From Diphasiastrum complanatum (taxonomy: Eukaryota > Streptophyta > Lycopodiopsida > Lycopodiales > Lycopodiaceae), in the NCBI GenBank assembly GCA_029204225.1, contig CM055096.1:60178957-60242956 (forward strand): a stretch of DNA of 64,000 nucleotides, written 5' to 3'. The notes beneath the pieces are model-generated. The model ran no database searches and was not told where the DNA came from. It saw only the letters and a program-made list of their open reading frames with translations. The first letter of the stretch is position 1, and each line of letters begins with the position of its first letter. The position numbers were made by a program, and so were the translations under genes. This document shows positions 2,048 to 52,380 of this stretch, piece after piece.

Positions 2048-2412
2048 TTTACCACTCAGGAAGCCTATGTGGCAATTGTTATAGGGTCTTTTTACGATCT
2101 AGAACTCCTCTAATGACATGAAGTTGTTTGGTTATGACAGTTTTTTGCAGAGATTGACTTCAGCAGGACTCGAGGGTATCATATTTTGTGATAGCCAGAG
2201 TGGCAGACAACTTGTAAAAAATCACGTTTATCATGCTAGGACTAAGCACATAGAAATTAAATATTACTTCTTAGTAATGAACTTAAAATAGCAATGTAGT
2301 GCCATAGATCATATAGATGATGTTCTTACAAAACCTTTGAGTAAGGACAAGTTTGAGGTTTTTAGAAATAAGCTTTTTGTTTTTGACATTGAGAATAAAC
2401 TTAAGCTTTAGG
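2048..2412 (+). pseudogene. Ty1/copia RNase H C-terminal remnant
   Basis: The plus strand encodes the end of a copia polyprotein: TTQEAYVAIVIGSFYDLELL, then IIFCDSQSGRQLVKNHVYHA with the conserved D of the CDSQS motif, then RTKHIEIKYYF and IDHIDDVLTKPLSKDKF, ending NKLKL followed by a stop. Double stops after LELL and one before QCSAIDH break the frame, so this is dead. The stop is followed at once by a purine-rich GGGAGAG and TGTTAGAATT, which is the expected polypurine tract and 3' LTR start. Upstream pol domains are missing; sequence before 2040 is low-complexity T-rich. Confidence 0.85.
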
Positions 2413-18127: not shown

Positions 18128-18163
18128 ACATTAGAGGAGTTCTCAATATCAAAAAGACCCTTT
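18128..18163 (+). repeat. Left terminal inverted repeat, copy 1
   Basis: Identical over 36 bp to the reverse complement of 26232-26267. The inner end (AAAAAGACCCTTTAAG) is similar to the copy 2 terminus (CAAAGAGGGCCCTATAAG). Confidence 0.9.
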
Positions 18164-18647
18164 AAGGAATGCCATGTAGGATACACAAAAATATCAAAAT
18201 AAATAAAACAATATTGTTTTGCCCACACCACTCCCAAGGCCTCCCCAACTCCCAATGATCTAACCACAGTGTCTATAGTCACAGTTAAGAACTGTTAACA
18301 GTTCGCAGTATAACTTGACTAAATTCAAAAATATTCCCTCCATTGGTTACGAACAGGGCAATATTTCCACTTGATCTAGAATATGACCGCCATCCCCAAA
18401 TTCGAATCAGAAAAAATTGCAAAATATTTACATATGCATTCCTTCCATGAGAATGGAAATATGAGCACCAACTACCTATTGGAATGAAAAAATGAGCGGC
18501 ATTTCCAAATTTGAATCAAGCATACAAGCATGGAGATTGGATTGATTGTACATAGTATATAATATAATCAAAGATGAGTATTTTGTTTTGCTTCATAGAA
18601 TCTGGTCATAGTACTTTGATGCAACTGATTACTCTATTATTTTTTTT

Positions 18648-20553
18648 ATGATGACATTATATCATCTACATGTGGATATCCCTATTGATTTGGCACCTTT
18701 GCAGAGAAGAGGAGCCAAAGGAGTTCAAATATCTGCTGAAGATCATTCTCGTTACAGGGCAGAAGGAAAGAAAAACGTGGATTTGTGGACAGATGGAACA
18801 TTATATCCACAAGATCCAAGCACTTTGACACATGCCACATTCTCTTCAATAACTCATTTAGTTACATGGATATGCAATGGGCATAGTGGATTACGAGGAT
18901 ATTGTGAAAGATTGCAAAACCTTGGAAAACAACTTTATATGAATAAAGTTCACTTGTTAGAAGGTGAGTTAATTCGGATATCCTCTTATTGTCAGAATAG
19001 AGATTGTCATCTCCAAAAGACGTTAGAAGCTGAAAGTAAGAAGCGAAAGTGACAAAATTGCAAGGATATTCAAACGCTTTCAAAAGGGAATTATTGAAAT
19101 AGGAGGATCCATGCAATCAAGTAACCATATTCTAAATTTTGTAAGTTTTTCAATGACATTTGGATTTAATTTTAGCTATGGTGATATTCTGTTAACTATT
19201 TGTTTTTTTTGCAGATCTGCATTAGTAGCTCCTCGGAATATTAAAGACAATGCTTCACTAGGAATGTCATTGGGCACAATATTGACTTGCAAATCCACTG
19301 AGCGTATCATGATGAACAATAGGATTTCAAATGTAAAGTGTAAAATAGCAGAGTCTTTGATGGTGGACATTCAAAATATTTTAGATTAGACTATAGTTCA
19401 GGGTGCTTGTGATTTTGCAGGTATTAGTAGGGAAGCATATGCAACAATATTTAAACTAATTAGAGAAGCTTTTAAGCAAGTTCAAATTAGAAAAGTCCCA
19501 ATCCCTAGGACATATCACTTGAAGAAAGAGAGAGATACATTAAACATAGGTATGCAGAAGATCATTGGAACTCCATTTCATATTGAGGAGGTGTATGAAA
19601 CTGATGGAAGATCGATATTTTATAATTCATCAAACAATTTATTTGTTGATCTATGCAGATCCAAACTGGAAGCCTGTGCTATCTATCCCCTTAAAAAATG
19701 TGCATGTTTGCACTCTTCATGCAGAAGTTAGATTAATAGTAAAGATCATTTATCTTCATATAATTTTTGCTTGGAATACTAAGCCAGCATCATTAGCATA
19801 GGAACCTATCTCTTGATTAGAAGATGTTTTATCAAAAGCAGGACTCCATAAAGGACATGTCAAAATTCAAAAAGATGAAAAGCTTTCAGGAAAGAATGGG
19901 AACATGCCAACTAAGCCAAGCATAGGAGGAGCAAAAGCACGTCGTTTTCTATCAAATCATACTAGTAAGGCTTCTAATATTCAACACTCAATCTGGACAG
20001 ATATTATTGCTGCCACTCAGGACTTCGAGAAAGACGGCAAAACCAAAGTACTAAAAGTTGATGTATGGAAAAAGCTTGATAGTATTATTGCTATTTTAAG
20101 AAAAGAAAAATACTCTGATATTGATAAGAAAGCTGTCCAAAGGACTTGTGTCGAGTTTGTTAATGCAATATCAAAAGCATGGGGAGAAGATCACATCGCT
20201 CATTACATGGTTAGTATAAAATTTTCAAAATGCTTTCAAATTTTCAGATATATTTAGATCTAAACATAAAACTAACATTATGATTTTGACATATGCAGCA
20301 CATACTAAGAGATCATACAGCATTTTTTGCAAATACATATGGAAGCTTGAGTGTATGGTCATCACAAGGGATGGAGAAGTCACACTGGCAAGCACGAGCA
20401 GCATTTCATTGAAATACACAACATGGAAGAACCAATGAAAAACGAAATTACATTTGTCAATTGTTTCAGTGGTTCTACCGCAGAGTTCAGATTCGACATA
20501 TAACAAAGTCCACACAATACAACAAGTTTAGAAAAGCATGCAAGCTCATATAG
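18648..20553 (+). pseudogene. Gene A copy 1: DDE-type transposase, core deleted
   Basis: Exon 1 (18648-19120) starts MTLYHLHVDI and ends RRIHAIK; exon 2 starts at 19215 (SALVAPRN, SLGTILTCKSTERIM). Exon 3 ends at 20209 (WGEDHIAHYM). Exon 4 (20299-20553) has RDHTAFFANTYGSLSVWSSQ followed by GMEKSHWQARAAFH, a TGA, then QLFQWFYRRVQIRH. The E of GMEKSH is the likely third catalytic residue. Compared with copy 2, about 650 bp are missing at 19655: the sequence runs from NNLFVD straight into DPNWKPVLSI, losing the first two aspartates and the CxxC pair. An in-frame stop (19387) and the TGA at 20410 also break it. Superfamily is uncertain; the GD..CxxC..GxEKSH pattern is seen in several eukaryotic DDE transposases. 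Confidence 0.75.
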
Positions 20554-20683
20554 GAAGAGAAAATTAGATGATTGCTGAGTAGAAGATCATCATGACATGT
20601 TCAGAATTGCTTTGCAAATTCATTGAACAAGAGAGGAGCAATACCCAATGTAAATGTATTGATTGTATCATACAAAGTGTCAA

Positions 20684-22180
20684 CTATTCATCATCAGATC
20701 TTGTATCAGATTCTATGGTAGTATTGTTATGAAGAGATTCTCTGCTAGCGTATGCATCTAATAGATGTGCATTATCCTTATTTCCACTAAGCTCAATATA
20801 AGTGGAATACAACGAATAATGGGAGCTCCTTAAAGGAACATTCCCATCAGTAAAGCCTAAAATGTTCAAAACATAAGATCTTTTGACAAAAATGATCTTA
20901 TTTGTCTTAACAAAGCTATGTCCTCCTAAATAAAATGATAAAGCTTTAACTACCATTATAAGACTCTCCCCGAATGGGCTCAGCTTGGAATGAGCAATAC
21001 ATATCTCACTCTTCAAGAAATGCCAAAGACAGTGGCCCATTCCACTGTCCCTCTGGAACGAGGATGCGTGTTGTCTGAAACCACTCGTCTTGCAGCAAAA
21101 TCATCTATTATGAGAGCATCCTGCAATAGGAAATATGTTAGCAAAAACACATTCAGTGATTGAAAACATTCAAATGCAAGGAAGATTAAACACTTACACA
21201 TTCTTCATCATCAGCAACAACCAGATCAGGATGATCAATATAATGACCACGTACTGAAGTGGAATCATCAGTGAAATGCATTAATGATGGACGAGGGAAG
21301 CCCATCTAGGATTGAAATGTCGTGAATTCTTCATCGGATGGTTTGCCTCGCCCATCCTCAGCTATATTTGATAAAGTCTTATTCAGACATTCTTCACCGG
21401 TCATAAGACCCTCCTCATCATCAAAATCAATACCAGCAACAAGGTCATCTGTCTCAAAATCTACAAAGTCGGAGAATTCAGAAATTGTGCCGGATAATAA
21501 ACATAGAACCTCGTCCTCACGATAGTCAAATAATTTACATAAATCAGTAGTAGTAAAATATACATCATCATTAATATAATATACAGGCAAATTGAAAAGA
21601 CATTTCGAATCCTCCATAGATTTGGATTCATCATCAGATGTATTTTGGCCAATGAAAGAATCCCGGAGAACATCAGTATTTAAATCAATGAAGTCACTTT
21701 CTTTATCAGGAGTGTCAATAAGAAAGTGACTGATATCCTTAATGGCTGATTGAACAAAGGAGGGTCAGCAATAGGAAACTCATCATCATCTGGGATCTGA
21801 ACTAAAAGAAAAAGTACGAAACCACTCTGATATTCAACCAATCAAATTTCTTGTTGCAATACGGACACATAGAACTACTTTTGAAAAGATCAACAATTTG
21901 GTGAACATTCTATCCAGTCTATGTCTAAAAGCTGAGAAGAAATGAACAAGATCAATATAATGCATGTACTGGAGTTGACCTATGGAGAAAACAGGCTTGC
22001 TAAGTATATCTCTGAATCTGACATAATGTTCATAAAATACGTCAGAATTTGGTTGTGCAGTCCTGAAAACATGTAGATATGGCCTGAATAGGCTGTGGAA
22101 GTAGTCCTTTCAGTAATCCCAAATTCACTCAGAAATGAACTCAAGCCCGATTATCATGAGGATGATGAGGAAGAGGCCAT
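20684..22180 (-). pseudogene. Gene B copy 1: unknown conserved transposon protein
   Basis: Read from 22180 leftward: MASSSSSS and stops, then FYEHYVRFRDILSKPVFSIG, DLVHFFSAFRHRLDRMFTKL and a CPYC pair. Later exons include the acidic MEDSKCLFNLPVYYINDDVY (21617) and, after an AG acceptor near 21120, DALIIDDFAARR. The last part reads GMGHCLWHFLKSEICIAHSK and FGESLIMVVKALS. Copy 2 has LDRMFTKL, FLDDFAICR and HALGHYLKFFKNNEISVAHS at matching positions, so the protein was under selection before decay. It converges on gene A (131 bp apart) and diverges from gene C. No known family was recognised; the CxxC pair suggests metal binding. Confidence 0.55.
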
Positions 22181-23009
22181 GGCAGTAGCGTGAATATCAC
22201 ACCTGTGCACGCGGGAGAACTGAACCAAAACTAACTATCAAAATGGTGCAAAAGATGGATATGTATGGCAGACAGATACAAAATATCGCACTTGTGTGCG
22301 AGTAGGTATACTTGCAAACAAACGGACAACAATGAGCGTGCACAAAAGTGATATGTCGCAAATTTCGAGAACGCAAAAGGTAAAAAATTATTCAGTTTCC
22401 GTGCCATTTATACTAAATTTTTGCACGTGTGGTCAACGGACTTATGACACGTGTCTACTTTCAATTCGACAACAGGCACAGGCACGTGTGAGATGACACC
22501 TGCACACGTGTGAAATGACACCTAGACACATGTCACGTGTTCATTCGATTGCTCATAAACATGTGTCACTCTCGCATTCGATCGTACAAATCTCACACGT
22601 GTAGTGTGACAGGGTGACACGTGTCGCTCTCGCATTTGTCCGTACAACTCCCACATATGTGACAGGACGTTCTTTCGCACGTGCGAACCCCAACATAAAA
22701 TCACAAATTTCGATGAATTTTTTCCACTTTTTTTCGCTCCGCATACCACATTTGTGCGCACCCTTCACAATCAAAATTCCTCCTACTACTTCCATGCGCA
22801 CAGGTCCGATACGTCTGCCTACGTGTCACCCCATATTGCACTTGTGCGTCTTTTCTCAAATCTAATCGTTTTCTCTGATATTCGGCTCGCATAGGTCCGA
22901 TATGCCGTACATTCTGTCCGTACATAGTGGTCCTCTGCGAGTTCTTTATCATCCCTTCCTTCTCATCCTAACCTTCACGCACAAGTCCGCTATCACATAG
23001 TTCACGCCC
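22181..23009. promoter_or_regulatory. Divergent B/C promoter region, copy 1, with eight CACGTG boxes
   Basis: Eight CACGTG hexamers lie within 260 bp (22424, 22448, 22483, 22505, 22534, 22596, 22618, 22678), many inside ACACGTGT. A TATAAAT faces gene B at 22412-22406. CACGTG is the plant G-box bound by bZIP and bHLH factors. Copy 2 has four in the same place, so the feature is ancestral. The region also has long pyrimidine/GTG repeats that make small spurious reading frames. Confidence 0.7.
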
Positions 23010-24727
23010 ATGGATAGGAGAAAGCAGACAAGGAGAGACTTCTTCTCTCCTGGCTCATCCTCATCTCCTGCGGTTGCCATCACACCACCTGCTAACCTAG
23101 AACGCGCAACCGCAGCAGGTGGCTCTATGAGATATGCAAGTATCAGAGGTCAACAGCTCTGTTGATCCCAAGAGCTCCATTCTACCGTGTTGTCCGGAAC
23201 ATAACAAGAAATGATCTCGGACAGCACGTTAGATTCACACCGAGTACTCTTTAGTGCCTTCAGGAGGCTGATGAAGACTATATTAGCCTTTTTTTTGAGG
23301 ATTCTTTTTTGCTTGCCATCCATACCAAGAGGGTTACCATAATGCCCAAGGATTTTTAGCTTCTGATGAAAATGAGGGATAGGTACTATAGGTTACATGT
23401 ATCTCAGCCTGCTGCTCCTAGACCAACTCCTGTAGATAGGACTCATCTTCCTACGAAGCGTCCTAAGAAGCAGACAGCCCCCAAGCGTGCTCCTAAGAAA
23501 GTGAAGCCTATCCCAGAATCCATTGTAGATAATGTTGTTGTTGATAATGTTCTAAATATAGCTACCTCTGTTTTGGATACTCCTATAATTGTTGTAGATA
23601 CTACACATTCACCTCCTCCTCCTCCTCCCAATTTCTATACATATATGGATTCGGCTGATTATCTTAAATTTGAGAAAGACATATCGGATGCTATAGATAC
23701 AATTGGTACTCCTTTTTGTTTAAGACTAGAAGAACTTGATTTTAGTATTAATTTTAGAGTTCTAGATTGCCTGGATCTCAAAGACAGATGCGCTTCTATC
23801 AGTGATCCTATGATAGAGTCCGGGCTGACACTCTTGCAATTTGACATTGCAAGAGATTCATCAAACGAGTTGCTGGTGCTGAGTAACTTTCTGCTCCAGG
23901 CCTTCAAGGAGAATAATGACACATTGTCATAGTGTCTGACAAGTGGATTCACACCAGCAACAAAGAATCTGGTCATTCCTTATCATACCAAATAAGATAT
24001 ATTAAGTGCTTCTTCCTATTTTATGCATTAACTTTGACATTTTCAATTTAAATAGTTCTTAGAATTGCCGCTAAAGTACTTTCAATTTTATTTTGCAATG
24101 ACCATTGGAGTTTAAACCTGATCTCTATTAAGAGATTTGTAAATAATATTATTAAATGTTCTTGCAAGATGAATTCGACGAGAAATACGCATAAGGATAT
24201 AGATATATTCATTCCATATCTAAGTAAATATATTCCTACAGACGTTTCCCATTCCGTGGATTGGCAGATTGTCAGCTTGGAGGTAAACTCTGTCTTTCTT
24301 AATAGCATTTTGACATCAGTATTCTAATGAAATATTTTCAATCTAATTTTCTGTTTAATAATTGATTTCTTGTGTGCTGAATTATTTTGCAGTCACCCCA
24401 GCAAAATGATTCATTTAGCTGTGGGTGGTGTACAATGCCAAGTTGTTTTTTGAGTGGTTCATCCTTCAACAAGATGTTGATATTTCTAAGGTAATAAATT
24501 CTGTTTATTCTTATTTTGGAATCATGATTAGTTTTCTATTCTAGTGATGTTATTGGCCATTACTAATACATGAATGTTCTATTTTGCAGTTTACACTTCT
24601 TGAGTACACATCAAGCCAAGTGTACAGATTTAGACAAGAAATTATCCTAAGCATGCTGGCTAGGGCAAGGCTTCAGCCTCCCATTATTGATGATAGTGCA
24701 AAGGATGATGTAGTTGTACTAAATTGA
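23010..24727 (+). pseudogene. Gene C copy 1: histone H3 fold - basic linker - Ulp1-like protease
   Basis: The start MDRRKQTRRDFFSPG is followed, after a small frameshift near 23126, by an H3 core: [67 protein letters not shown] and MRDRYYRLH. It keeps the alpha-N, three-helix order and the KRVTIMPKD loop of H3, with one extra residue in loop 1 and two in-frame stops (TAG at TL/CLQ and DF/LL). A basic stretch (KRPKKQTAPKRAPKKVK) and an acidic/proline linker follow to 23932. From 24057 comes the protease part: FCNDHWSLNLISIKR; exon 24393-24490 SPQQNDSFSCGW; exon 24590-24727 FTLLEYTSSQVYRFRQE to a stop. H of DHW, Q of QQ and C of SCGW fit the C48 (Ulp1/SENP) active site. The usual Asp of the DS motif is Asn (MNST). 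The exon at 24393 is 7 nt short, so the frame is lost. Confidence 0.8.
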
Positions 24728-24922
24728 TATCAGAAAAAATATAGATAGCATAGAACAAAAATACATGTATAGACTTCATAGAAAAATATACATTGATATA
24801 TCAAATGTTGCTCCAGTTTATGAATTTGGGAGCACAAAATACATGTACAGATGCCCAACTTGGACTTTCATTTATTGAATGAAAGAGTGTATACACAAAT
24901 TTTTACTAAAGTTTATTTGAAA

Positions 24923-25823
24923 CTATTGTTCTCCCACAATGGTGATTGTTGTAGATAGATCTTTGCAGCACGTTATCAGCTCCTGTCTTTTTCGCATCTG
25001 TGACATGGCAAATATTAGTGAATGTGCAATTGTAAATGATGACATTTTCTATTATTTTGTTCTATTTTGAAATGGCAATAAACATAAAGTACTTACGAGT
25101 CTTCCATTGATGATAAATCTTAAATATGTTGGTAGATTGGTTTGTAATAGCATGAGCTCTGTTCTGATAAAATCAAGCTTCCAGTGCTCTTCCACCTCAA
25201 CCATAGTCAAATATTGCTTGTATCTCTAGTAGCTAAATGTGAGACTGAGCATTTGCTTTTCGATATGATAACGAAAGATCATTGAGGACTTTTTAATTGT
25301 GCATTCTATGTCATTATTTGTTTTACTATCCCAGCCTTGATCCATGAGATCTGACCAAGTCTCATCTGATAAATCCTTGCAAACAAATAAAGTTGGTGTC
25401 CTACGAACACTAGCACTCGAGAAAAAATCAACAAATGTATGCAATGAGATAAACCAACATAGGTGGACAATTTTCGAGCCTGTGCTTATCTTCATAGCAT
25501 TACAATTACATTTTTGATGATCATGAGGATTGATTTCATGTACTTTGATTTTTGAATGCATATATACATGTTGCACTAAGACTTCTGATATCGATTGGCC
25601 TCCCGGGGTAGTCTTAAACTCCAAAATTGTTGCTTTCCAATAAGATTTGTAAGTCATTTTTGCTCTTTTCTTTTGTCGAAAATTGCCCTTTGATGATGGA
25701 TGCAGCAATACCCATGAGTTCTTCGTATATTGTTGGCTTCCAGTTATCAGCTTCATCTTTCTCATTGTAAAGAATCATAGAATCGATTGTAGATCTGGGT
25801 CTCCTCGCCATTGCTATTTTCAA
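24923..25823 (-). pseudogene. Gene D copy 1: unknown conserved transposon protein
   Basis: Starts MKIAMARRPRSTIDSMILYN, continues DNWKPTIYEELMGIAASIIK, shifts frame near 25690 and continues RQKKRAKMTYKSYWKATILE. Then CNCNAMKISTGSKIVHLC, a CxC...HxC arrangement that could bind zinc. Next come WFISLHTFVDFFSSASV, PTLFVCKDLS, DIECTIKKSSMIFRYHIEKQ, and smaller exons VEEHWKLDFIRTELMLLQ and RKRQELITCCKDLSTTI ending EQ. Copy 2 shares WFISL..FVDFFSS, FVCK.LS, IEC.IK.SSM.FRY.IEK and WSLNYIRWELLLLQ. Gene D converges on gene C (196 bp between stops). The resemblance to a SWIM zinc finger (CxCxnCxH) is only partial. Function unknown. Confidence 0.55.
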
Positions 25824-26231
25824 AGCTTGGGCGCCAAAAATCTCTCTGATATGTTACTTAATTTTAATTTTTCGTATCACATTTAATCTAATGTGAATGC
25901 CAACATAGTCATAGTTACTGCGTATACCATATTTTCATACTATATTTCTATAACTGTAACTAGTATAGTTAGAAAATTTCATTATACTAATCAGCATAGT
26001 AAAGTAAATTTAACTTGAGATATTGACGTCGGGCAGATTAGCACATGTCGGGCAGGAAGAAAAAACCAATGGGATACGTCCATGCTTCCCGGACACAAAT
26101 TTCAAAGTTTTCTATATTGCATTTTTATTTTTTAGTTAATTTGAACTACGTTACGTAGATTTCAAATCTGTGCATTTTGATTGGGCCTGGTGACGGTTGT
26201 AACTAAAGATAAAAAATAAAAGTATCTTTAC

Positions 26232-26267
26232 AAAGGGTCTTTTTGATATTGAGAACTCCTCTAATGT
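26232..26267 (-). repeat. Right terminal inverted repeat, copy 1
   Basis: Perfect 36-bp inverted partner of 18128-18163, ending CTCCTCTAATGT. The inner flank TTTTATTTTTTATCTTTAGT is similar to the inner flank of the copy 2 right end. Confidence 0.9.
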
Positions 26268-41239: not shown

Positions 41240-43383
41240 ACAAGAGGGAGGATATAAAGAGACAAGTCATAATGTGGTCCTCACATTTTTGCAAAGATAA
41301 AGAGTGAAGTGGAATAAATGGTCTCCACTTGGACAGACATAAAGAGAGAGTAGGTGGTCCCCACACTTGGGAAAAAGAGGCAATTCAATGTGGTCCTCAC
41401 TCTTTTATAGGAAGGATGGAAATTATGGGTCATGGGTGATCCCCATGTAGATTGAATAGAACCTTGCCATTTTGGATAGCATTACTCATCATTTACATAA
41501 GTGAATGGATTTTTTACTCATCTTTGCATTGTGTGATGCCATCAAAGATAGTGATGACGTTATGGCTTCACGTTATGTATTTTATGGTAGGATTTTCCAA
41601 AGGAAAGGTCACTAAAAAATAATTGATCTTAGAACTTTCTTTGGAGATTTAGTTTGATCATCTTGCATTTTAATTAGGTTGTTAGTTTTTAAGCTTTTAG
41701 CTTTGGTGCTATATTGGAAAGGTACATTGATGATTTGTTAAAAACATAAGTGCATATGCTTAGGAGTTTGAGCACTAAAATGTGTTTCTTGTAAATAGTT
41801 TAAAATTGAAGTCGCTTACTTATTGTTTTTCAATTTTCAATGATTTAATTAATTTTTTTAAGTATAAGCATAGAAGTGTATCCTAAAGCTTTTCAAGAGC
41901 TTTCATATCATGTTGAGTTTGTAAAAAGCTCATAATTTTTGTTTATGTTAATTTAGAAAGTGTTTACATAGCAAAACTTCGTCATTACATGGCCACATGT
42001 TATTATAGTCGCAAAGACTTGGGCCCAAAAAAGTTTCTTGATTTTCATGTCAAGGAAAGCCTAGGCGCCTCTAGGCTTTCTCGATTTTGGGAGCCCATGT
42101 TTTATGGGCATAATGCCTTGGGCCCAAAGATAGATATATGTATATATATATATAGACACGCACACACACATATATTTGGATTCTCACATCAAGGAAAGCC
42201 TTGTCCCAAATTTGAGTGCTCGAGCCCTTGGGCTATAAGCCTCGGCCCAGGCTCTCAAAAGGCCCTGAGGGCTTTCTACTATACAAAAAGCCTACGATTT
42301 GATAGTTTTGCATGCTAAAATCTTCCAAATATTAAATTTTGCCCTCAAATATCGAATGAAAAACTTATTACTGAACATAAAATACTTTTTTTCTAAAGTT
42401 GTGGATACGGTGGTGCTTGTGAGTTCGCCCATCAAGATTCTAGTCCTCATGTGATCATTTAAATATATGTTGTGGGGATGTTGTTTGTTGGGAAGTTCAT
42501 CTTCTAGCATGTTGGACAATTGTCCTCTCTGGGTACTGATGTTTGGACAAAGTTTGTGGATTGTAAATGTGGAACATGCGAGGTTGCCCTTTATAGATAT
42601 TGATGGTTGGGCAACATTTGCAGGTTGTCTTGTCCTATTGTTATGTAAATGTTTTCCACAACCCTTTTCTTTTAATCTATTTATAAGTGTTGATGTCTAG
42701 TCATTTTCTTCCATTATTGGGTGTTGATGTCCAACCCTTTTTGTCTATTTATGGATGTTGTTTTTTGCATGAGCTTTGTAGGTTGTCCTTTCCACAACTC
42801 TTTTTGTCCATTTGTATCTCCTAGGGTTGTCCATTGTGTTCTCATTGATTGTTTGATGTTATGTAGATTTAGTGTGTTTGAGAGTCCCAAGTCTACTTAA
42901 CATTAGGATTATTTGGCATTGGCTTTCGAAATACATGTTTGGACTCCTAAGCATTTTTGTTTCATCCAACACTTGGTTCATTTGAGTGTCCTCAATGTTG
43001 CCTTTTGTTTGTGAAACCTTTTCTTGTCATGTTATGTCAAGTCAATTTGTCACATCTAGAGACTCCCGAGACCACAAGAACCCATCTCTAGTGGTCTCAA
43101 TTAGTTTAAGTACTGCAATGAGCTTCATACTTACCTTATTCAATGGAAATTGTTATGGCTAGCACTCACTAGTGGCTCTAAGTTATGATTTTGTCGTTGT
43201 TGAGCTCCAAGAGTGGACACAATTTTGCTAGTTAACTTGTGATAACAAAAGGTAGCTTCTCTATATCGAAACATAAGTTTTATTTTTGGAAACTAAAATT
43301 TTGTGTAACACATGGTGAATGTTCAATGGATGGTTTGGCTTAGATATATAGATCTCTATGCTTGATTACATTAGAGAAAATAT
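41240..43383. other. No gene; imperfect tandem repeats
   Basis: At 42045 and 42178 a TCAAGGAAAGCCT phrase repeats. From 42500 to 42810 a loosely repeated motif (TTGATGNTTGGNCAA, TGTGGANTTGT) recurs. Reading frames here are short and unconvincing. Confidence 0.4.
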
Positions 43384-43763
43384 GGGCCCAAAGAGGGCCC
43401 TATAAGAAATGCCATGTAGGAGAGAGAAAAATAACTATAAAGTAATTATAATATCATTTTCTAACTTCTTTACTCATCTGTCCGCACTACTTTCCAAGTA
43501 AATGAATGCACCTTAGTTTAGTCACATCAAACTTCACTTGTGCTTAACCGTAGTTAGAATATAATTTTCAAAATGGTGAAATATTCCCTCCCAATAGTTG
43601 GGAACACTCAAAAATTTGAATTAGGAGTGACATTTTTGAAACAAAGCCTATGCCATCTCTATCTCCAGGGTCAAAAACAAGTGTTTAGCGCCATCTCAGT
43701 CGTTATCACCATCTCCAGCTTTGTTATTGTCATTGTGTTTTTTGTTACTATACTACTGTACTG

Positions 43764-44863
43764 ATGACAAAGCTTTATCATCTTCATGTGGATCTGTCAC
43801 CAGAATATGCTCCGCTCAAGACAAGAAATTCAAAGCAACTCAAATTGCCAACTTCTGATATGGTCTAATATAGGGAGGAAAAGCTAAAGCATGTAGATTT
43901 ATGGTCATCAGAAACATTGTATCCTATTGATCCATGTTCATTGCAACATCCAGATTTTCATTTGGTGAGTCAGTTAATAATCTATATGTGTCATGGTAAA
44001 AATGGCCTTTTGGGTTACTGTGAGAATTTGATGCTCTATGGGAATGCAAAGAATACATTATTTGGAGGAGGAATCAAGAAAAATATCAAAGGAGTGCAAA
44101 GAAAAATCTACAAAGTTGAAAACTTGTTTGGATGAAAATGAAATTCTCAAGAGGAGATCCAAAGGTTGAAATCTTCTTTGCGTCATTATAAACTAGTAAT
44201 GATGAGATAAAAACTGCATTCCAATCCATGTGTATCTCATATTTGTCTCTTGTTAAAGATATGGATGTGCTTAATAGAAAGGTCCGAAGCAACAAGAGGA
44301 AAAGACTAGTAAACAAGGATATATGTGATCTATCATCCAGAGGAGGTCATAGAAGAAGACGAATCCGTGCATTCAAGTAAGTTATAGCTTATTTGGTATT
44401 GAATATTGCTTGAACTTTTTGATTCATTCATAATCACTAGTTTTGTTATTTATTCATTTCAACTTTCTATTGATTTGCTTATTATATTGTTGTGAATACT
44501 ATGAGTGTCCTAATTTCTACTGACATTTTCATGAACATTATGTTTGCAATGCAGATCAGCATTGGTTGTTGAAGACCATTTGGCTGATGGGATTTTGATT
44601 GGAAACTCACTAGGCTCTATCTTGACTTCTAAATCTATGAAATCAATGTTAAACAATAACAAAATGAAAAAGATTAAGGCTTCAATTACTGATAGCATTA
44701 TGAAGAAGTCAGAAAAATATTAGACACTACATTGTTTTAGGGGGCATGTGACTTTTCTAGCATCAATACAAAAGCATATGCAACAATGTTTAAGATGATA
44801 AAGGAGGCATTTGCACATGTAAATATTAAAAAGTTTCCAATCCCACGACCATTTCATCTTTTA

Positions 44864-44927
<64 letters not shown>

Positions 44928-46206
44928 AAACCAAGGTATGCAGACAATAGTTGGTAATCCATCTCATATCAATGAAGTGTATTGCTCAAAAGAAGAAAGT
45001 CTAGCATATAACAATTCCAACAATTTATTTATTCACATTAATTAGTTACTAACATTCATCATAAATTTTTATGGTATTACAAATGAGAATGTCAAGAATA
45101 AGTTAATAGTTGTTCTCAAGTTAGATGAGTCTAAAAGTATAAAAGGACAAAAAATGAAAAGAGTCAGTCTCACGATCATGAATGGAGCACTTTCAAATTC
45201 AGAAGACTCAGAAGGCCTCAATTTCAGTGTTCAATTAGAAAATGATATCTGGTGGTTGGCAGCATTTCAGGTATAGCAGTTCCTTCACATAATCAATAGG
45301 GATAATCATTTTAATATGGATTTCATTTAGGAAATCTTCTCTGTGTTAATATTATGAGGCTAATCACGTTTTTGTATTCTCTTATAGGTGATGAAAGAAG
45401 ACCATGACATTCTCTCATGGATATTTGATAGAACGTCATATCCTACCACCATAAAAATTCACATGGAGGGAGTTCCACTCGATATTGTTGGAATTGGCAC
45501 TTTCAACATTGAATGGCATTTAGCAGGAGATCTGAAGACATTAAAATGTATGTTCAATGTATCCCATGGCGCTAACTCTAAACACCCTTGTTTGTATTGC
45601 ATGAAGATAGCAAAAGACATGACAAGGAGTACAAGAATATCAAGAGATCGAGAAGATCCTAATTGGAAACCTATACTACCGATTCTTCTTCAGAATGTTC
45701 ATATTTGTACATTGCATGCGGAGGTGCATATTATAGAAAAAAGAATATATCTTCACATCTTGTTTGCATGGAATTCCGAGCCAGAGGTAGATGCGAAGGA
45801 AGCTATTTCCAGATTAGAGGACGACAGTCTAAAGCAGGCTTACGTAAAGGCCACGTTAAAATAAAAAAAGATGATAAGCTATCAGGTAAAACAAGAAATA
45901 TTCAATGCAAGCCAAGCATTGGAAGATCCAAAGCTCGAAGATTTTTATCAATTTATTCTAGCAAACAATCCAAGATTCAATACTCAGTTTGGAAAGAGAT
46001 TACTGCAGCAACTCAAGATTCAAAGAAGAAGGTTCTACTCGTATACACAAGGTAGAAGTTTGGAAAAAAAATTAGACAACATGGTGAAATATTTGAGGAA
46101 AGATAAATTTTCAAATATTGATGTACAAATGATACAAAAAACAACTAGTGAATTTGTGGATGCAGTTCGAAGTGCATGGGGTGTTGATCATATAACACAT
46201 TATATG
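43764..46206 (+). pseudogene. Gene A copy 2: DDE-type transposase lacking its last exon
   Basis: Exon 1 (43764-44376): MTKLYHLHVDLSPEYAPLK, a TAA, VDLWSSETLYPIDPC, ending in a very basic RKVRSNKRKRLVN and RRRRIRAFK. Exon 2 (44555-45270): SALVVEDHLADGILIGNSLG, GACDFSSINTKAYATMFKMI, then an AT microsatellite (44867-44924) inside the frame, then KLIVVLKLDESKSIKGQKMK. Exon 3 (45388-46206): VMKEDHDILSWIFDRTSYPT, EWHLAGDLKTLKCMF, SKHPCLYCMKIAKD, HICTLHAEVHIIEKRIYLHI. The D of LDESKS (45124) and of GDLK are candidate catalytic residues; CLYC (45589) is a likely zinc pair. The exon with GMEKSH present in copy 1 is absent; sequence passes directly into gene B. Stops and the AT insertion add to the damage. 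Confidence 0.75.
44867..44924. repeat. AT microsatellite inside gene A exon 2
   Basis: About 29 AT units between TTTTAAAC and GTTAAACC. Copy 1 has only ATTAAACATAGG at this point, so the array grew here after the copies diverged. Confidence 0.95.
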
Positions 46207-46264
46207 GTAAGATTTCGATGTTACACTACTATAGACAAATATGTGCAATTAAATTGAATACTTT

Positions 46265-47045
46265 TGGTACTTAGACAGAGCCTTGATTGTCATAATCATT
46301 GTCTCACCATGTTGATGAAACTTTGAATGGGCAACACTAATCTCATTATTCTTGAAGAACTTCAAATAATGTCCCAGTGCATGATCTCTTGAAAATTCTC
46401 TTGGAGAAGATCTCTGCCCTCCTCGACAAATTGCAAAATCATCAAGAAAAATTGTTTTCTGAAATGAAAAAATCCAAAGTAAGCTCCAGTATATAACCTA
46501 ACATAACGAATCTATTAGTCCATAATAAGATACAAAACTTATGCATTCAGCATTGTCTTCCTTAATTGTTGTCTCTCCATCAATAAAATTATTATCTATA
46601 TTATAAGTAGGAAATGTGATAAGACATTTATCAGAAGGAGAAAGGGTGTTGGGAGTTCTAGGGCCAATAAACGATGCCATGTTTCAGACTTTGTACCACT
46701 AGAAGAAGCAGCCTCAGAAGTGGAAGGTCTAGCTTCCGAATCGTCAAAAATATTTAACAAAAGAAAAAAAAAACAAATGCAGACTGAAAGTCAACAAATC
46801 TACATTTTTTATTGTGAATTGGACACTCATCTATAGACTTGAAATCATTATGTAACTTGGTGAACATTCTGTCAAGCTTAGCCTTATAACTATGCTTGTC
46901 GAGTGTCACCAGGTCTTAATAATGAAACATGTCCTTATTTTGAGATCTGAATAAGAAAGTACTGAACAGAGACTTAAATCTGAGATAAATCTCAAAAAAT
47001 GCTTACACACCAGGACCCTCAGTAAGAGAAGGAAGAAGAAAAAAA
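46265..47045 (-). pseudogene. Gene B copy 2: unknown conserved transposon protein
   Basis: From 47045: FFEIYLRFKSLFSTFLFRSQ, a stop, DLVTLDKHSYKAKLDRMFTK, DECPIHNKK; then PRTPNTLSPSDKCLITFPTY with NIDNNFIDGE; then TIFLDDFAICRGGQRSSPRE and HALGHYLKFFKNNEISVAHS with HGETMIMTIKALSKY to the end. Shared with copy 1: LDRMFTKL, the ..DDFA.. block, and the GH.L.FFK..EI..AHSK...GE..IM..KALS block. The last of these is the best conserved. No known family. Confidence 0.55.
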
Positions 47046-48024
47046 AAAAAAATTGAAATTTGAAATACCCTAAATTATCACTCATACCAAATTTTATGAA
47101 AAAAAGAAAGCAAATTAGAATCGAAATTAGACATTTTGAGCAAAAAATACATATGTGAAACTCTCAGACGCAAAATGCAGGTCAGACAAGAACCTCAAAG
47201 CAATGTGCGCTTGAAAGAGATATAAGAAAACAGGGTATCGAATCCGAGCACCTGTACAAAGATCAAAAACAAAATGAGATGTAAGGTGCGCTTGAATGTG
47301 ATACCGGCCCAGGCAGTATCGGTTCCAGGCGCAAGTAAGTCAATGGAGCGTAAACAGTAGAAAGAGCACGCTTGAAATCGATCTCTGGATAGAAAATCAA
47401 AAATTTGTGTGAAAATCCGCGTCAGAAATGGCCTATTTATAAAAAAAATTTGCAAGTGTGGAGGAGTTCCAAAGTGACACATGTCGATGCATTATTTGTC
47501 ATTAATATTACGTCGTACAGACAATGATTGGTCTAACATCTATCACGTGCATAATGACACGTGTCCAAATCTGATTTGTGCACGTGTCCCAATCCACGTT
47601 GTCTCATAATTGAGTTATCATTGTCAATAACGGACAATACACATGGACCAGTTAGATGCCGACACATGTCGTAAGCCGTTTTTTCACACGTGCAAAAATT
47701 TCCTATATATACACCCTCAGAATTTTCATTTTTTTCTCAGAATTTTTGATTTTCGCTCCCAATATCGCTCTCAAGCGTGCTCTCTCTTCGCAAAATACTC
47801 TGCCTTCTCACCGTGCGCTCGAGACCGATACCGTTGTGATTCCAATATCGCTTTCGAGCACAAATCTCTTTTCTTTACATATTCACTATCTATCTTGCAC
47901 TGAATCCGATATTTAGTTCTGGTATCGATCTCAAGCGCTTTCTGATCGCAAATTTTTTTGTTTTCGTTCCCTGCGCTTGGGTTCAAACTTTTTTTTTTCT
48001 AATTTATTTTTCTTAATTCTAAGA
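47046..48024. promoter_or_regulatory. Divergent B/C promoter, copy 2: opposed TATA boxes, G-boxes, mirrored 80-bp repeats
   Basis: TATAAATA faces gene B at 47441-47434; TATATATA faces gene C at 47704-47711. Between them lie four CACGTG boxes (47544, 47558, 47581, 47687). Outside each TATA are three repeats at about 80-bp spacing: GTGCGCTTGAA/GCACGCTTGAA at 47205, 47286 and 47366 on the B side, and their inverted form (AATATCGCTCTCAAGCGTGC and variants) at 47761, 47844 and 47921 on the C side. The layout is symmetric about the G-boxes. Confidence 0.75.
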
Positions 48025-49775
48025 ATGATGGCTAGGACCAAATCCATTGCCACTGCCATAACCACTATACAACCATCTCATGCCCGTGTTCCCCCTGGCA
48101 CTAGCCGTAGACATGGCAAAATCAAGTCTGGCTAAGGGAGATTAGAAAACTCCAGAGATCAGATGAACTGTTGATCCCTAGAGCTCCTTTTGGCTGATCT
48201 GTCAGGAATGTCACTCTGTCACTTAGGCTAGATGTTCATTTTAACGTGACAGTCATGCAGGCCTTACAGGGTGCTGCAGAAGACTTTCTAGTCTAGTTTT
48301 CTGAGGATACATGTCTTTTGGTCGTGCATGGTAAGCGTGTCACCATCATGCCAAAAGATTTCATCATTCTCGGAAGAATTTGGGACCGTTATTCTGGGTT
48401 GCATGTGGATAACGGAACAAACTTGCCAACTACTTCTAGGAGGAAAAGGAAGCAGCTTGTTCCCAAGAAAGCTGGATCTCGAAGGCCAGCTGCTTACCTC
48501 CCTCCTAGAGTTATCTCTGCCAAGGGACCGCGCATCGTCCTGAGCTCTAAATCATATGCTGGAGAATTTGATTCAGACCGAGAATCACCCTCTCCTCCTC
48601 GTGTTATTCGTTCAGCTCCTCAGAAGGTTTCTTCACCAAAAGTGATGATTACCCAAGAGGAGCTCGACAAAATAACCGAGAAATCTATAAATATTATATC
48701 TACTTCTCTTTTTGCTCTTGTACATAATCTTTTTGTCAAAATTTCATACAATCCTGTGCAAGTTTATTTTGATTCTGACCATTATAACCAGTACGAGGCT
48801 TACTTAACTAATAAAAGTGATCTTCTGGGCAATTATTTTGATTTCTTTCTTCCAGATTCACATAGAAGCTTTAGATTAGGTTTCCAATTTTGTGTCGAGC
48901 TTAAAGATAAAACATCAGATATTCCAGATGTAATAGTAGAAGTCGGGGGATCCTTTTTGCAGAATAGTATTACTTCCGATTCTCATGGTGTAGTTTTTGG
49001 TGTTAGTCCATTTATTATGGGAGCGGTGAAGGCAAAAGAAGCTGATTTTGATAAGGTTGTATATTTCATCAAATGTAGTCCAGTGGCAAATTTTTATTTG
49101 ATTCCATATGAAAATATTGCTCATATGTTTTTGTTGCTTTAATTTGGATTGTTGTAGTCGGCATTGTTTTAATAAGTAAGGACTGTTTTAATTTTTATTT
49201 TGATTGTTGTAGTCGGCATTAGAGCCTGAACATTCTTTCTGTAGAGATAAATAAGGAGGGAGTATCAAATTTTTTATGTGTAAAAGTAAACTCAGCTGCT
49301 AATACACATAGAGAATTTGATTCTCTACTTCATGATGTCGTTCGGGAAATACCGACAACGGCAACCTCAATTGGAGAGACAACCATTAAATCTCTCAAGG
49401 TATATTTAATTTATTTCTAATATGCATGTATTTTTTTTTTAGTTTAAATTTATCATCATAGCATAAATAAATTTTTTGTCATAATATTACTAATTTTCGT
49501 TCAATATATGCAGTGTGTACAGCAAATGGACGCTTTCAGTTGTGCATGGTTTGTCTTGTACAATACAAAGCTCTTTTTTGAGTGGTATAATTTACAAGTG
49601 GATGTAGATATTGAAAAGGTAATATTTTGTTCATTTGTAATTCCTTTCATTCTGATTCATATTTCTTTACTATCATTGTTTGTAATTTGTTGATTCATGT
49701 GTTTTGTGATGACAGTTCACTCTTGAGCCGTATACTCCTGACGATGTATATAGATTCCGGCAAGATTTTTATTGA
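48025..49775 (+). pseudogene. Gene C copy 2: histone H3 fold - basic linker - Ulp1-like protease
   Basis: Begins MMARTKSIATAITTIQ, keeping the MARTK start of histone H3. After a frameshift at about 48130 the core reads [85 protein letters not shown]. Spacing between PF and ALQ equals canonical H3. Two stops lie inside the fold (PFG/SVR and LV/FSE). The same frame runs on through a basic segment (TSRRKRKQLVPKKAGSRRP) and a long linker to 49142 (NFYLIPYEN), so histone and linker are one protein. The protease follows: degraded His region, VKVNSAANTHREFDSLLHD to 49399; exon 49514-49618 CVQQMDAFSCAWFVLYNTKL and FFEWYNLQVDVDIEK; exon 49716-49775 FTLEPYTPDDVYRFRQDFY and a stop. Q and C of the C48 site are present; the Asp is Asn as in copy 1. 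Confidence 0.85.
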
Positions 49776-49859
49776 TATCAATATAGATTCTTACAATCAG
49801 GTTGTGTCCATAGTGTAATATTGGAATGCAATTTTCTATATTGATAAAAAGACATGATG

Positions 49860-50466
49860 ATTGGCATGTATTTGCTGATAGTGAATCTCAGTGTTCTTCC
49901 ATAAGTTGGATTGTTTCGCCAATATCTCTGCATTTGATCTCGAGCTCATGTCTTTTACGTACCTGCATAAAACTAATACAAAGTGAGTTACAATTAGTAC
50001 ACAGATTGTATTAGAAAGTTTTGATTGAAACTATTCATAAAGAATCGAGTGTTTATAGTTACTTACGAGTTTACCACTGAAATGAATTTGAAGTCTAAAA
50101 GTACATCATCTTGTAGGAGCAATAGTTCCCACCTGATGTAATTTAGACTCCAATCTTCTTTTGAATGTCCACTGGCTTCCAAGTCTTGATCGAGTGGCAC
50201 CCATTTACCTTTATTTTTTTTTTCATCTTTGATAATGAAAGCATAAGCTCAACATTGGTTTTTTCAATTTGATAGCGGAAGCACATGGAAGACATTTTAA
50301 TTCTGCATTCTATTTCTCCATCTGATCTTTTGTCCTGATCTTCATCCATAAGTTCAGATAATAAACTGTGTGATAAATTTTTGCATACAAACATCGTTGG
50401 GATTTTGTGTACATTGACACTTGAAAAGAAATCCACAAATATATTCAAGGAAATAAACCAACTCAA
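49860..50466 (-). pseudogene. Gene D copy 2: unknown conserved transposon protein, N-terminus lost
   Basis: From 50466: WFISLNIFVDFFSSVNVHKI, PTMFVCKNLSHSLLSELMDE, EIECRIKMSSMCFRYQIEK. Then exon pieces DWSLNYIRWELLLLQDDVLL (about 50150-50070) and VRKRHELEIKCRDIGETIQL with MEEH and a stop (about 49965-49885). All have counterparts in copy 1. The part with the CxC...HxC motif is absent because the terminal repeat follows at once on the right. Confidence 0.55.
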
Positions 50467-50580
50467 TCTGACTTTATGTAGAGCCCCGATTTCAAGGTTT
50501 CAATTGGTCCACATGGCAACAAAACTAAGAAAAATAAATAAAAAATCATCTTTTTCAAAGGCCCTCTTCGGGCTCTAAGT

Positions 50581-52380
50581 TTCTCTTATGAATATATGGA
50601 TCTTGAATTTCGGTTGGTAATATTTTTTCTCCTCTAAGTTATGGAATTGTCCCAAAAGCCTTGTCCCTCGCACCATTTTGTTGTTTGGCTTATGAACGAG
50701 GTTGAATGTTGTTATACAACTTAGGTAGCTTGTGAATCATGGAGTCATTGTTTCCATTGCCCTTTGAGGTTAATGTTCTTGCCTTTTACGGTCTCTTATT
50801 TTATATTTTGAAGTTAATGAATTGGGCCTTGGGGCACCTCTTTGTAAATAGTTCAAAATATCCATAGTTAGCTAGATATGGGTCTCACACCAAACCAGGT
50901 TGTCAAAAATAAAGTCAGAATACCTTAGCAATGGATCTATCTTTATAATATTCGAATTTTCAATAGTTTATTTATAACCACATACAGTGGAATGAGTAGG
51001 CTAAATATATTCTATGCCACATTGATGTACACTCGTACCATGCCCAAAGATTTGTTGACATCATGGAGCCATGTGCTCGAGGTTAACATTGTACATTTGA
51101 GTGCGCAAACATGAGAGTACATTGTAACTATTGTGTCGTAAGAAAAGAACTTAATGATATAAGGTTTTTTCTTGTGAGCTTGGCTCTTCTTTTAATGGGA
51201 ATATATTTTTCGACTAAGGTTTAACATGGAGTTTGTAATCTAGTATTTTCATTGTTTGGGTATAGCTTATAGCACCCCTTGTAGGCATGTCATTATTTAT
51301 TCATTTCCTTTTAAAGCTTCTTAGACGTACTAGCATTTTGCTATGTACAATTATACATTGTGCATAGTGATAGGTTGAGGTTAAATAGGAAATAGGGAGC
51401 ACAAGGCTCCAAGTTGTCAACATCATAGCAGGAGATATTTGAGCCATCATTAGTGTGACATGAACTTTATTCTTAAGTTCGTCAACCCGGTTTCCTTGAC
51501 ATTGTGCAAATTTTGTACTGCACATAATAAAACTAGAATGCATTTGCAAAAAGAACAAAACTTTCTATGATTCTAGAAATCATTTCATTAAGATCGATAA
51601 ATCCTACTTACTATAAAACCAAAGGTTGGAAATCATGTCTTCTTTGTAATATGACATTTCTTGCATAAGAGAACTAGCGTCTGTCTTTCAAACATCAACA
51701 TCCTTCAATTCTTTTCTAGAAACCAAAATTTGCAAATATATTTTTCTTTTATCAAATCGTGAATCCAATTTTTTTAATCACGATCGTGAACTTGTAAAAT
51801 TTAAACTATAGGTTTTGATTTACAAGAAAATAGATTACGTATAGACTTTTTCAACATGTAAAATGTAAGTATATGTAGGTAGAGCCTTTTGATTGTTTAA
51901 ATGGGTGACACTTTTTAGCTTTTAGTTGATATATGCTCCTTTTGAAAGTTCTTTATGCCCTTTTATGGGCCATAAAGTACTTATAAGAGTTTTATCCTTT
52001 TTTTGTTTCTATTTTTATAAGAGCTTTATCTAAAGTTTCATTGCATTATCAAAATCATTCTTTTTCAAAACTGGATAATTAAAATACTATATAATAATTT
52101 GCCAATGATCCAGTTACACTAGTAGGTAAGTGATGATTGTATCTCTTCCAATTAACAAGCATTATACTTAAAATGATATAGTTGCATGCACCACTTGCAT
52201 CTACACAATGAATGCCATTCCTCCCAATTGTACACCAAACCTTTGTACACCATCAATATGACAACATTGTCAACTAAGGCATTAGTGATATTAATTGCAA
52301 ATAGCTATAATTTTGAAGCTGATCGAACAACATCGTTCTCTCAAAACACAGCTTTAGACTCTAATAAAGGAAGCTGATTC
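50581..52380. other. No gene seen
   Basis: AT-rich; a few frames of 60-85 codons without recognisable motifs. Confidence 0.4.

Follow-up and report, generated by a model that had tools for sequence, protein, structure and literature searches.

The window analysed here is a 64-kb stretch of the genome of the lycopod Diphasiastrum complanatum (64,000 nucleotides; contig CM055096.1 of assembly GCA_029204225.1, positions 60,178,957 to 60,242,956 of the forward strand), and the feature under study, at window positions 48025-49775, is the decayed remnant of a gene that joins a histone H3, through a basic linker, to a Ulp1/C48-like protease. A tblastn search with a canonical H3 query detected two H3-like sites in the window, at 23099-23377 (E 2.1e-20) and at 48126-48380 (E 2.3e-20, 51% identity), the next-best match having an E of 0.86. 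The two sites mark two copies of the gene, here copy 1 and copy 2, respectively, and the pieces of copy 2 are as follows.

48028..48120, + strand: H3-like N-terminal tail MARTKSIATA, with an in-frame ATG also just ahead at 48025
48117..48402, + strand: histone H3 fold (tblastn E 2.3e-20), with stops at 48195-48197 and 48294-48296
48403..49115, + strand: basic linker, then the opening part of the protease region, 74% identical to family-C exon 1
49217..49399, + strand: second protease piece, H-stop-SLN, with a TAG at 49220-49222
49514..49618, + strand: third protease piece with QQMDAFSCAW, preceded by AG and followed by GT
49716..49775, + strand: last protease piece, FTLEPYTPDDVYRFRQDFY-stop

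The tail and the fold of copy 2 lie in different frames, with a frameshift near 48117-48120, and the stop at 49220-49222 is the codon right after the histidine of the protease HW motif. With one frameshift and at least three stops, copy 2 is a pseudogene and cannot itself make the fusion protein. The original prediction, which was based on the letters of the DNA, had one reading frame running from the H3 alpha-N helix into the linker and, a few exons later, the C48 motif; it said nothing of the H3-like tail in the other frame. The H3 alpha-N helix LREIRKLQRSDELLIPRAPF and MPKD are present as it stated, and the order of H3, linker and QQMDAFSCAW stands, but the frame is interrupted by the frameshift and the stops. 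Taken separately, the pieces of copy 2 gave two Pfam histone matches (0.0034 and 0.014), both under the cut-off, and no Peptidase_C48 match, and an Rfam scan of the window returned 0 matches at the gathering threshold.

Copy 2 belongs to one of three deeply diverged families (A, B and C) that have in common a transposase-like gene, two genes without assigned function (P1 and P3) and H3. In a family-B copy on C7 (L017), four exons separated by GT-AG introns make up an open gene for a predicted protein of 470 amino acids that matches Pfam Histone (1e-27, residues 27-123) and Peptidase_C48 (PF02902; 1.1e-10, residues 316-442), both over the cut-off. The proposal that an H3 fold and a Ulp1-like protease share one gene is thus borne out by a spliced relative, which also supplies the significant histone match that the pieces of copy 2 do not reach. 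In bits, PF00125 scored 101 in an open A copy and 97-98 in an open B copy (cut-off 26.4), and Peptidase_C48 scored 42.2 in family B (cut-off 20.7). The C-terminal part of the L017 protein weakly matched Ulp1/SENP chains, the best PDB match (E 9.6e-4) being a Ulp1-like SUMO protease.

A genome search with the copy-2 frame, in which X replaced the stops, gave 9,437 first-look candidates, of which 122 were scored, each spanning at least 280 of the 329 query residues. The 121 sites outside the window were 64-79% identical, and 12 of the 122 were stop-free. Among five family-C loci picked for open frames, four (L050-L053) carried an unbroken frame reaching from the tail as far as the linker and the start of the protease, the fifth (L054) having a tail deletion. 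The QQND-FSCAW piece was open in L051, L053 and L054 and not in L050 or L052; all four pieces were open only in L053. The His, Gln and Cys of the protease were present in both B and C. Separate histone and protease genes are ruled out for families B and C by the open B gene and the C copies, but in family A the H3 frame terminates at RRERN-stop and H3 stands without a detectable protease. Gln-rich stretches also occur in the family-A H3 (L009-L022), whose tail is separated from the fold by a very long proline run of variable length.

The fold residues identical to those of host H3 number 50/89, 49/88 and 45/88 in representatives of A, B and C, respectively. R69, E97, E105, D106, H113, K115, R116, V117, T118, K122, D123 and R129 are retained in the three representative folds, while in all of them R63 is changed to Pro and K79 is lost. 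Tails, with positions numbered by homology, were sampled from 27 copies, 25 of them readable at both positions of interest (L054 was unreadable and L029 had no row). Lys was found at H3 position 4 in 25/25 and at position 9 in 0/25, where Asp, Gly or Ala stands instead; three of the 25 (L022, L030 and L019) have a stop within the first codons. The fold identity to host H3 (45-50 of 88-89 residues) and the lack of Lys at position 9 rule out canonical H3.1/H3.3, which would call for a near-identical sequence and a complete tail bearing K9 and K27. In two trees with 9 or 7 reference rows, host H3 among them, the element H3s formed one group that stood outside H3 as well as plant CENH3, though support for it was modest (84/87 and 83/85); within it, those of B and C grouped together (98/97 and 97/97). 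As for the canonical H3 genes of the host, 9 of the 13 places listed fall in two clusters on C11 (30.68-31.04 and 50.37-51.80 Mb). The host genome also has 37 chlorophyll a/b-binding places, which mark it as that of a green plant, and a search for rbcL yielded three short fragments.

The original prediction also put the gene within a transposon, next to a transposase-like gene, and both the neighbour and element ends on either side were located. The remaining features of the copy-2 element, and those of copy 1, are listed below.

43369..50590, + strand: copy-2 element, family C, 7.2 kb, with terminal inverted repeats at both ends (26/33 bases)
43369..43401, + strand: left terminal inverted repeat of copy 2
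43746..46218, + strand: remains of the copy-2 transposase-like gene (tblastn with family-B pieces, 41-64% identity; no Pfam family over the cut-off)
46267..47023, - strand: remains of the copy-2 P3 gene, no assigned function (tblastn, 42-46% identity)
50081..50472, - strand: remains of the copy-2 P1 gene, no assigned function (tblastn, 34-52% identity)
50558..50590, - strand: right terminal inverted repeat of copy 2, diverged
18129..26266, + strand: copy 1, a family-B element, bounded on either side by 35-bp terminal inverted repeats
18612..20251, + strand: copy-1 transposase-like gene
20687..22234, - strand: copy-1 P3 gene
23010..23377, + strand: copy-1 H3 tail and fold, with two stops in the fold
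23378..24724, + strand: copy-1 linker and protease pieces
25055..25844, - strand: copy-1 P1 gene

The gene order in the elements read was P1, H3, P3 and transposase-like gene, with H3 and P3 flipped in A relative to B and C. The left CATTAG repeat of copy 2 occurred at 1,274 sites in the 1.74-Gb host genome (at most three mismatches), the family-B 35-bp repeat at 2,378 sites and the related family-A repeat, CATTAGGGCCC, at 2,020, the reversed control giving 0 in each case. These are dispersed copies bounded by inverted repeats, as is general for DNA transposons, and five complete A or B elements were retrieved, measuring 7.4-8.7 kb in family A (L041, L042 and L043) and 8.1 and 9.4 kb in family B (L029 and L030). 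No consistent target-site duplication was found, 3 bp matching by eye outside the ends in only 2 of 12 end pairs from families A and B. Element copies were spread across all listed chromosomes. A third CATTAG end, at window positions 2084-2115 (- strand), is close to the family-B repeat (CATTAGAGGAGTTCTAGATCGTAAAAAGACCC) and probably belongs to another B-like element reaching into the start of the window. L048 (C1:67871230-67872500), a short element that measures about 1.1 kb and is flanked by family-A repeats, is probably a non-autonomous derivative.

Single 30-base markers, allowing at most three mismatches, counted 209 H3 and 267 transposase sites for family A and 729 and 1,104, respectively, for family B, all reversed controls being 0; copy counts are possibly inflated by the assembly, as some sites are near-identical duplicates (L012 and L013, 99.4%). 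For 11 of the first 20 exact A-H3 sites listed, an exact A-transposase site lay by eye within 3.3 kb on the opposite strand. Together, the marker counts and this proximity indicate that H3 is a usual part of the elements. With H3 present in hundreds of copies, a chance pseudogene insertion at the copy-2 locus is ruled out. The group is a multi-copy plant DNA transposon whose usual gene set comprises the transposase-like gene, P1, P3 and an H3 variant, the latter fused to C48 in B and C.

Differences between the H3 folds inside family B were mostly synonymous. Four family-B folds, from a within-family set chosen for being open and from which L015 was dropped by the search pattern, had a mean synonymous divergence (dS) of 0.354, a mean nonsynonymous divergence (dN) of 0.049 and a ratio of nonsynonymous to synonymous polymorphism (pN/pS) of 0.18. 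The pooled ratio over eight B copies, including three not chosen for an open H3 (L029, L030 and copy 1 of the window), was 0.24 for the H3 fold and 0.37 for the first protease exon. P1 and P3 gave 0.41 and 0.46, respectively (seven copies each), and a transposase piece gave 1.0 (six copies), a value that mostly reflects recent decay given its low dS (0.046) and is no fair yardstick. Between B and C, the H3 dS was about 3 (saturated) and dN was 0.36. These comparisons support the retention of the H3 fold by selection at the protein level. Along a joined B stretch, L017 and L023 were 79-88% alike at about 12.1-14.2 kb, around H3, and 90-97% alike elsewhere, which suggests that the H3 block may have been exchanged between B subfamilies.

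The transposase-like protein carries the motifs KLDE, GDLK/ADLK and C-x2-C. None of ten pieces of this protein, P1 and P3 exceeded a Pfam cut-off, and no MULE (Mutator-like element) or other transposase family appeared in them at E up to 1, VANC not being separately searched. Its structure model was poor (predicted local distance difference test, pLDDT, 47; predicted template modelling score, pTM, 0.43). The fold search made with it, which bears on an RNase H-fold DDE transposase, gave no row at E ≤0.001, and RAG-complex chains occupied 7 of the 24 top rows, these like all others having E ≥0.48. A profile of the protein against PDB sequences gave two rows, the best at E 0.42, which is chance level, and the P1 structure model was unusable (pLDDT 34). 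On the fold search, a CMC/RAG-like enzyme is only a lead. Identification as Transposase_21 (PF02992) was rejected, there being no Pfam match and an hhalign probability of 0.2% to one host Transposase_21 protein; the host genome holds at least 150 true Transposase_21 places. At least 20 of those listed are crowded into 1.6 Mb (C1:48.58-50.20 Mb), many with equal frame length, which gives the appearance of CACTA-type elements in a local array. Assignment to CACTA by a 3-bp target-site duplication failed at the end pairs described above, a VANDAL/KIU MULE identity found no MULE transposase family in the pieces tested, and hAT found neither a Pfam match nor a target-site duplication pattern. Two viral-contig scans of weak coverage, with the B H3 fold and with an A transposase piece, confirmed no viral relative.

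We propose, as a plausible if tentative reading, that the H3 variant is a standard transposon gene and that the fusion acts as an element-encoded anti-silencing factor. By pairing with host H4, its histone moiety would be built into nucleosomes, perhaps those that cover copies of the element itself. H3K9 methylation sustains plant transposon silencing, and an H3 with Lys at the H3K4 position and none at H3K9 could not bear that mark. The tethered protease might then strip SUMO or another ubiquitin-like tag from nearby silencing proteins, and in family A the histone would have to act by itself. In favour of this reading are the open gene with both domains, the 122 sites with the long frame, the element ends, copy numbers and four-gene layout, the low pN/pS of the B fold and the B-C divergence, the retained fold residues, the tail pattern at positions 4 and 9, and the action against silencing reported for Ulp1-bearing VANDAL/KIU MULEs (PMC13317346). 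More tentative still is the wider form of this proposal, in which a transposon group unrecognised by Pfam transposase families would have encoded a nucleosomal H3 variant with Lys4 and an unmethylatable position 9 since before the three families split, chained to a protease in two of them, as a selfish histone by which the element would make the chromatin of its copies resistant to silencing.

Several observations weigh against this anti-silencing proposal. Both window copies are dead. The H3 folds of 11 family-A copies had a mean dS of 0.063, a mean dN of 0.027 and a pN/pS of 0.45, and those of five family-C copies 0.171, 0.084 and 0.52, respectively; set against the 0.18 of family B, where constraint is clear, the signal in these two families is weak or blurred. 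Some element copies have no H3 (L043), and the protease was not found in five family-A loci (best E 1.2). The catalytic set of C48 proteases is His-Asp-Gln-Cys, with CG usual at the Cys motif; by eye, the usual position of the Asp reads Asn (KMNS, KLNS), and family C has CAW in place of CG. An in-frame ATG lies four codons upstream of MART in A (MSEEMART) and one codon upstream in C (MMART), so the tail may not begin exactly at H3 Ala1. Plant CENH3 tails also keep Lys4 without Lys9, and given this likeness the element tail may be a matter of descent instead of adaptation.

Among the alternatives, it is unlikely, though less so than the others, that H3 belongs to the transposition machinery as a module for chromatin docking or DNA packaging, bringing the transposase to nucleosomes or organising element DNA, with the protease maturing or releasing the complex. 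Such a role is compatible with the presence of H3 in a four-gene unit with the transposase-like gene in all three families and with largely retained DNA- and H3-contact positions, but H3 is encoded separately and in an orientation of its own, which in A is opposite to that in B and C. We consider it distinctly improbable that the element histone is a decoy that binds host H4 and H3-H4 chaperones, slowing host nucleosome assembly or silencing, and that need not enter element chromatin. The retained fold with changed tail and loop positions (R63 to Pro and K79 lost in all three representatives) and the long Pro-rich or basic additions would suit a decoy; the H3-H3' interface residues H113, D123 and R129, which a decoy would need less, are nevertheless also retained. 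Marginally less probable again is a passenger, a host H3 captured once and carried without function. Captured genes usually decay, and many copies are broken, including both in the window. The published fungal hAT-H3 copies are also inert (PMC6710886). Against this, the fold has lasted in three families whose synonymous sites are saturated, and family C still holds open copies with the long frame (12 of 122 scored). Least probable of all is that the element H3 derives from and acts like CENH3, steering elements to centromeric chromatin or protecting them there: LLIP-x-APF and AED, together with KDF in B and C, are reminiscent of plant CENH3, whose tails likewise begin with MARTK and have no Lys9, but the element H3s lie outside both CENH3 and H3 in the two trees (modest support, 84/87 and 83/85), family A has an H3-like KQTAR tail, and copies occur on all listed chromosomes, centromere positions aside.

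The original prediction held that histone H3 is not a known cargo of plant DNA transposons. The capture of H3 by DNA transposons has been published for fungi, namely for hAT transposons of Dothideomycetes such as Pseudocercospora fijiensis, with copies inactivated by repeat-induced point mutation (RIP) (PMC6710886); H3 as transposon cargo thus has a precedent, though we found none in plants in the literature searched. According to that report (PMC6710886), the fungal elements are, like those described here, DNA transposons with terminal inverted repeats and H3 sequence in hundreds of copies; they differ in having a hAT transposase, an 8-bp target-site duplication and mostly truncated H3 sequences with 51-55% DNA identity to the original, and no protease is described there. 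The plant elements, in contrast, have no hAT match, no consistent target-site duplication, open H3 genes, a C48 fusion and three deeply diverged families. VANDAL/KIU (Kaonashi) elements are likewise plant DNA transposons in which a Ulp1-like domain is joined to a second protein of the element, and Ulp1-bearing members are reported to induce hypomethylation of related elements, acting against silencing (PMC13317346). They are described there as MULEs without terminal inverted repeats whose Ulp1 partner is VANC, whereas here the partner is histone H3 and terminal inverted repeats are present; the word 'histone' is absent from the main text of that review (PMC13317346). Fungal DNA transposons encoding a TET/JBP dioxygenase, with a proposed role in silencing escape, similarly recruit a gene for chromatin or DNA marks and differ in the gene, in the host and in belonging to several known transposon superfamilies (PMC12730594).

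The transposase-like protein resembles the CMC supergroup (CACTA/EnSpm, Transib/RAG1) in the order KLDE, GDLK/ADLK and then C-x2-C about 20 residues on, and differs from it in having no Pfam match and an hhalign probability of 0.2% to Transposase_21. The elements also point to a group of plant transposons for whose transposase-like protein Pfam has no matching family. Among the papers listed in searches of open-access literature, a weak basis for a negative, we found no plant transposon with a histone gene. The H3 captures known from transposons appear, in the literature consulted, to be inert fungal debris, and the Ulp1 of known plant transposons to have other partners. If the anti-silencing proposal is true, these elements would be parasites that edit host chromatin by supplying a histone, and their H3 would allow a direct test of whether partial replacement of H3 by a form lacking Lys9 is enough to escape plant silencing. 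Capture of H3 and carriage of Ulp1 by transposons are each already known; within the literature searched, their combination and the conservation of H3 are new.
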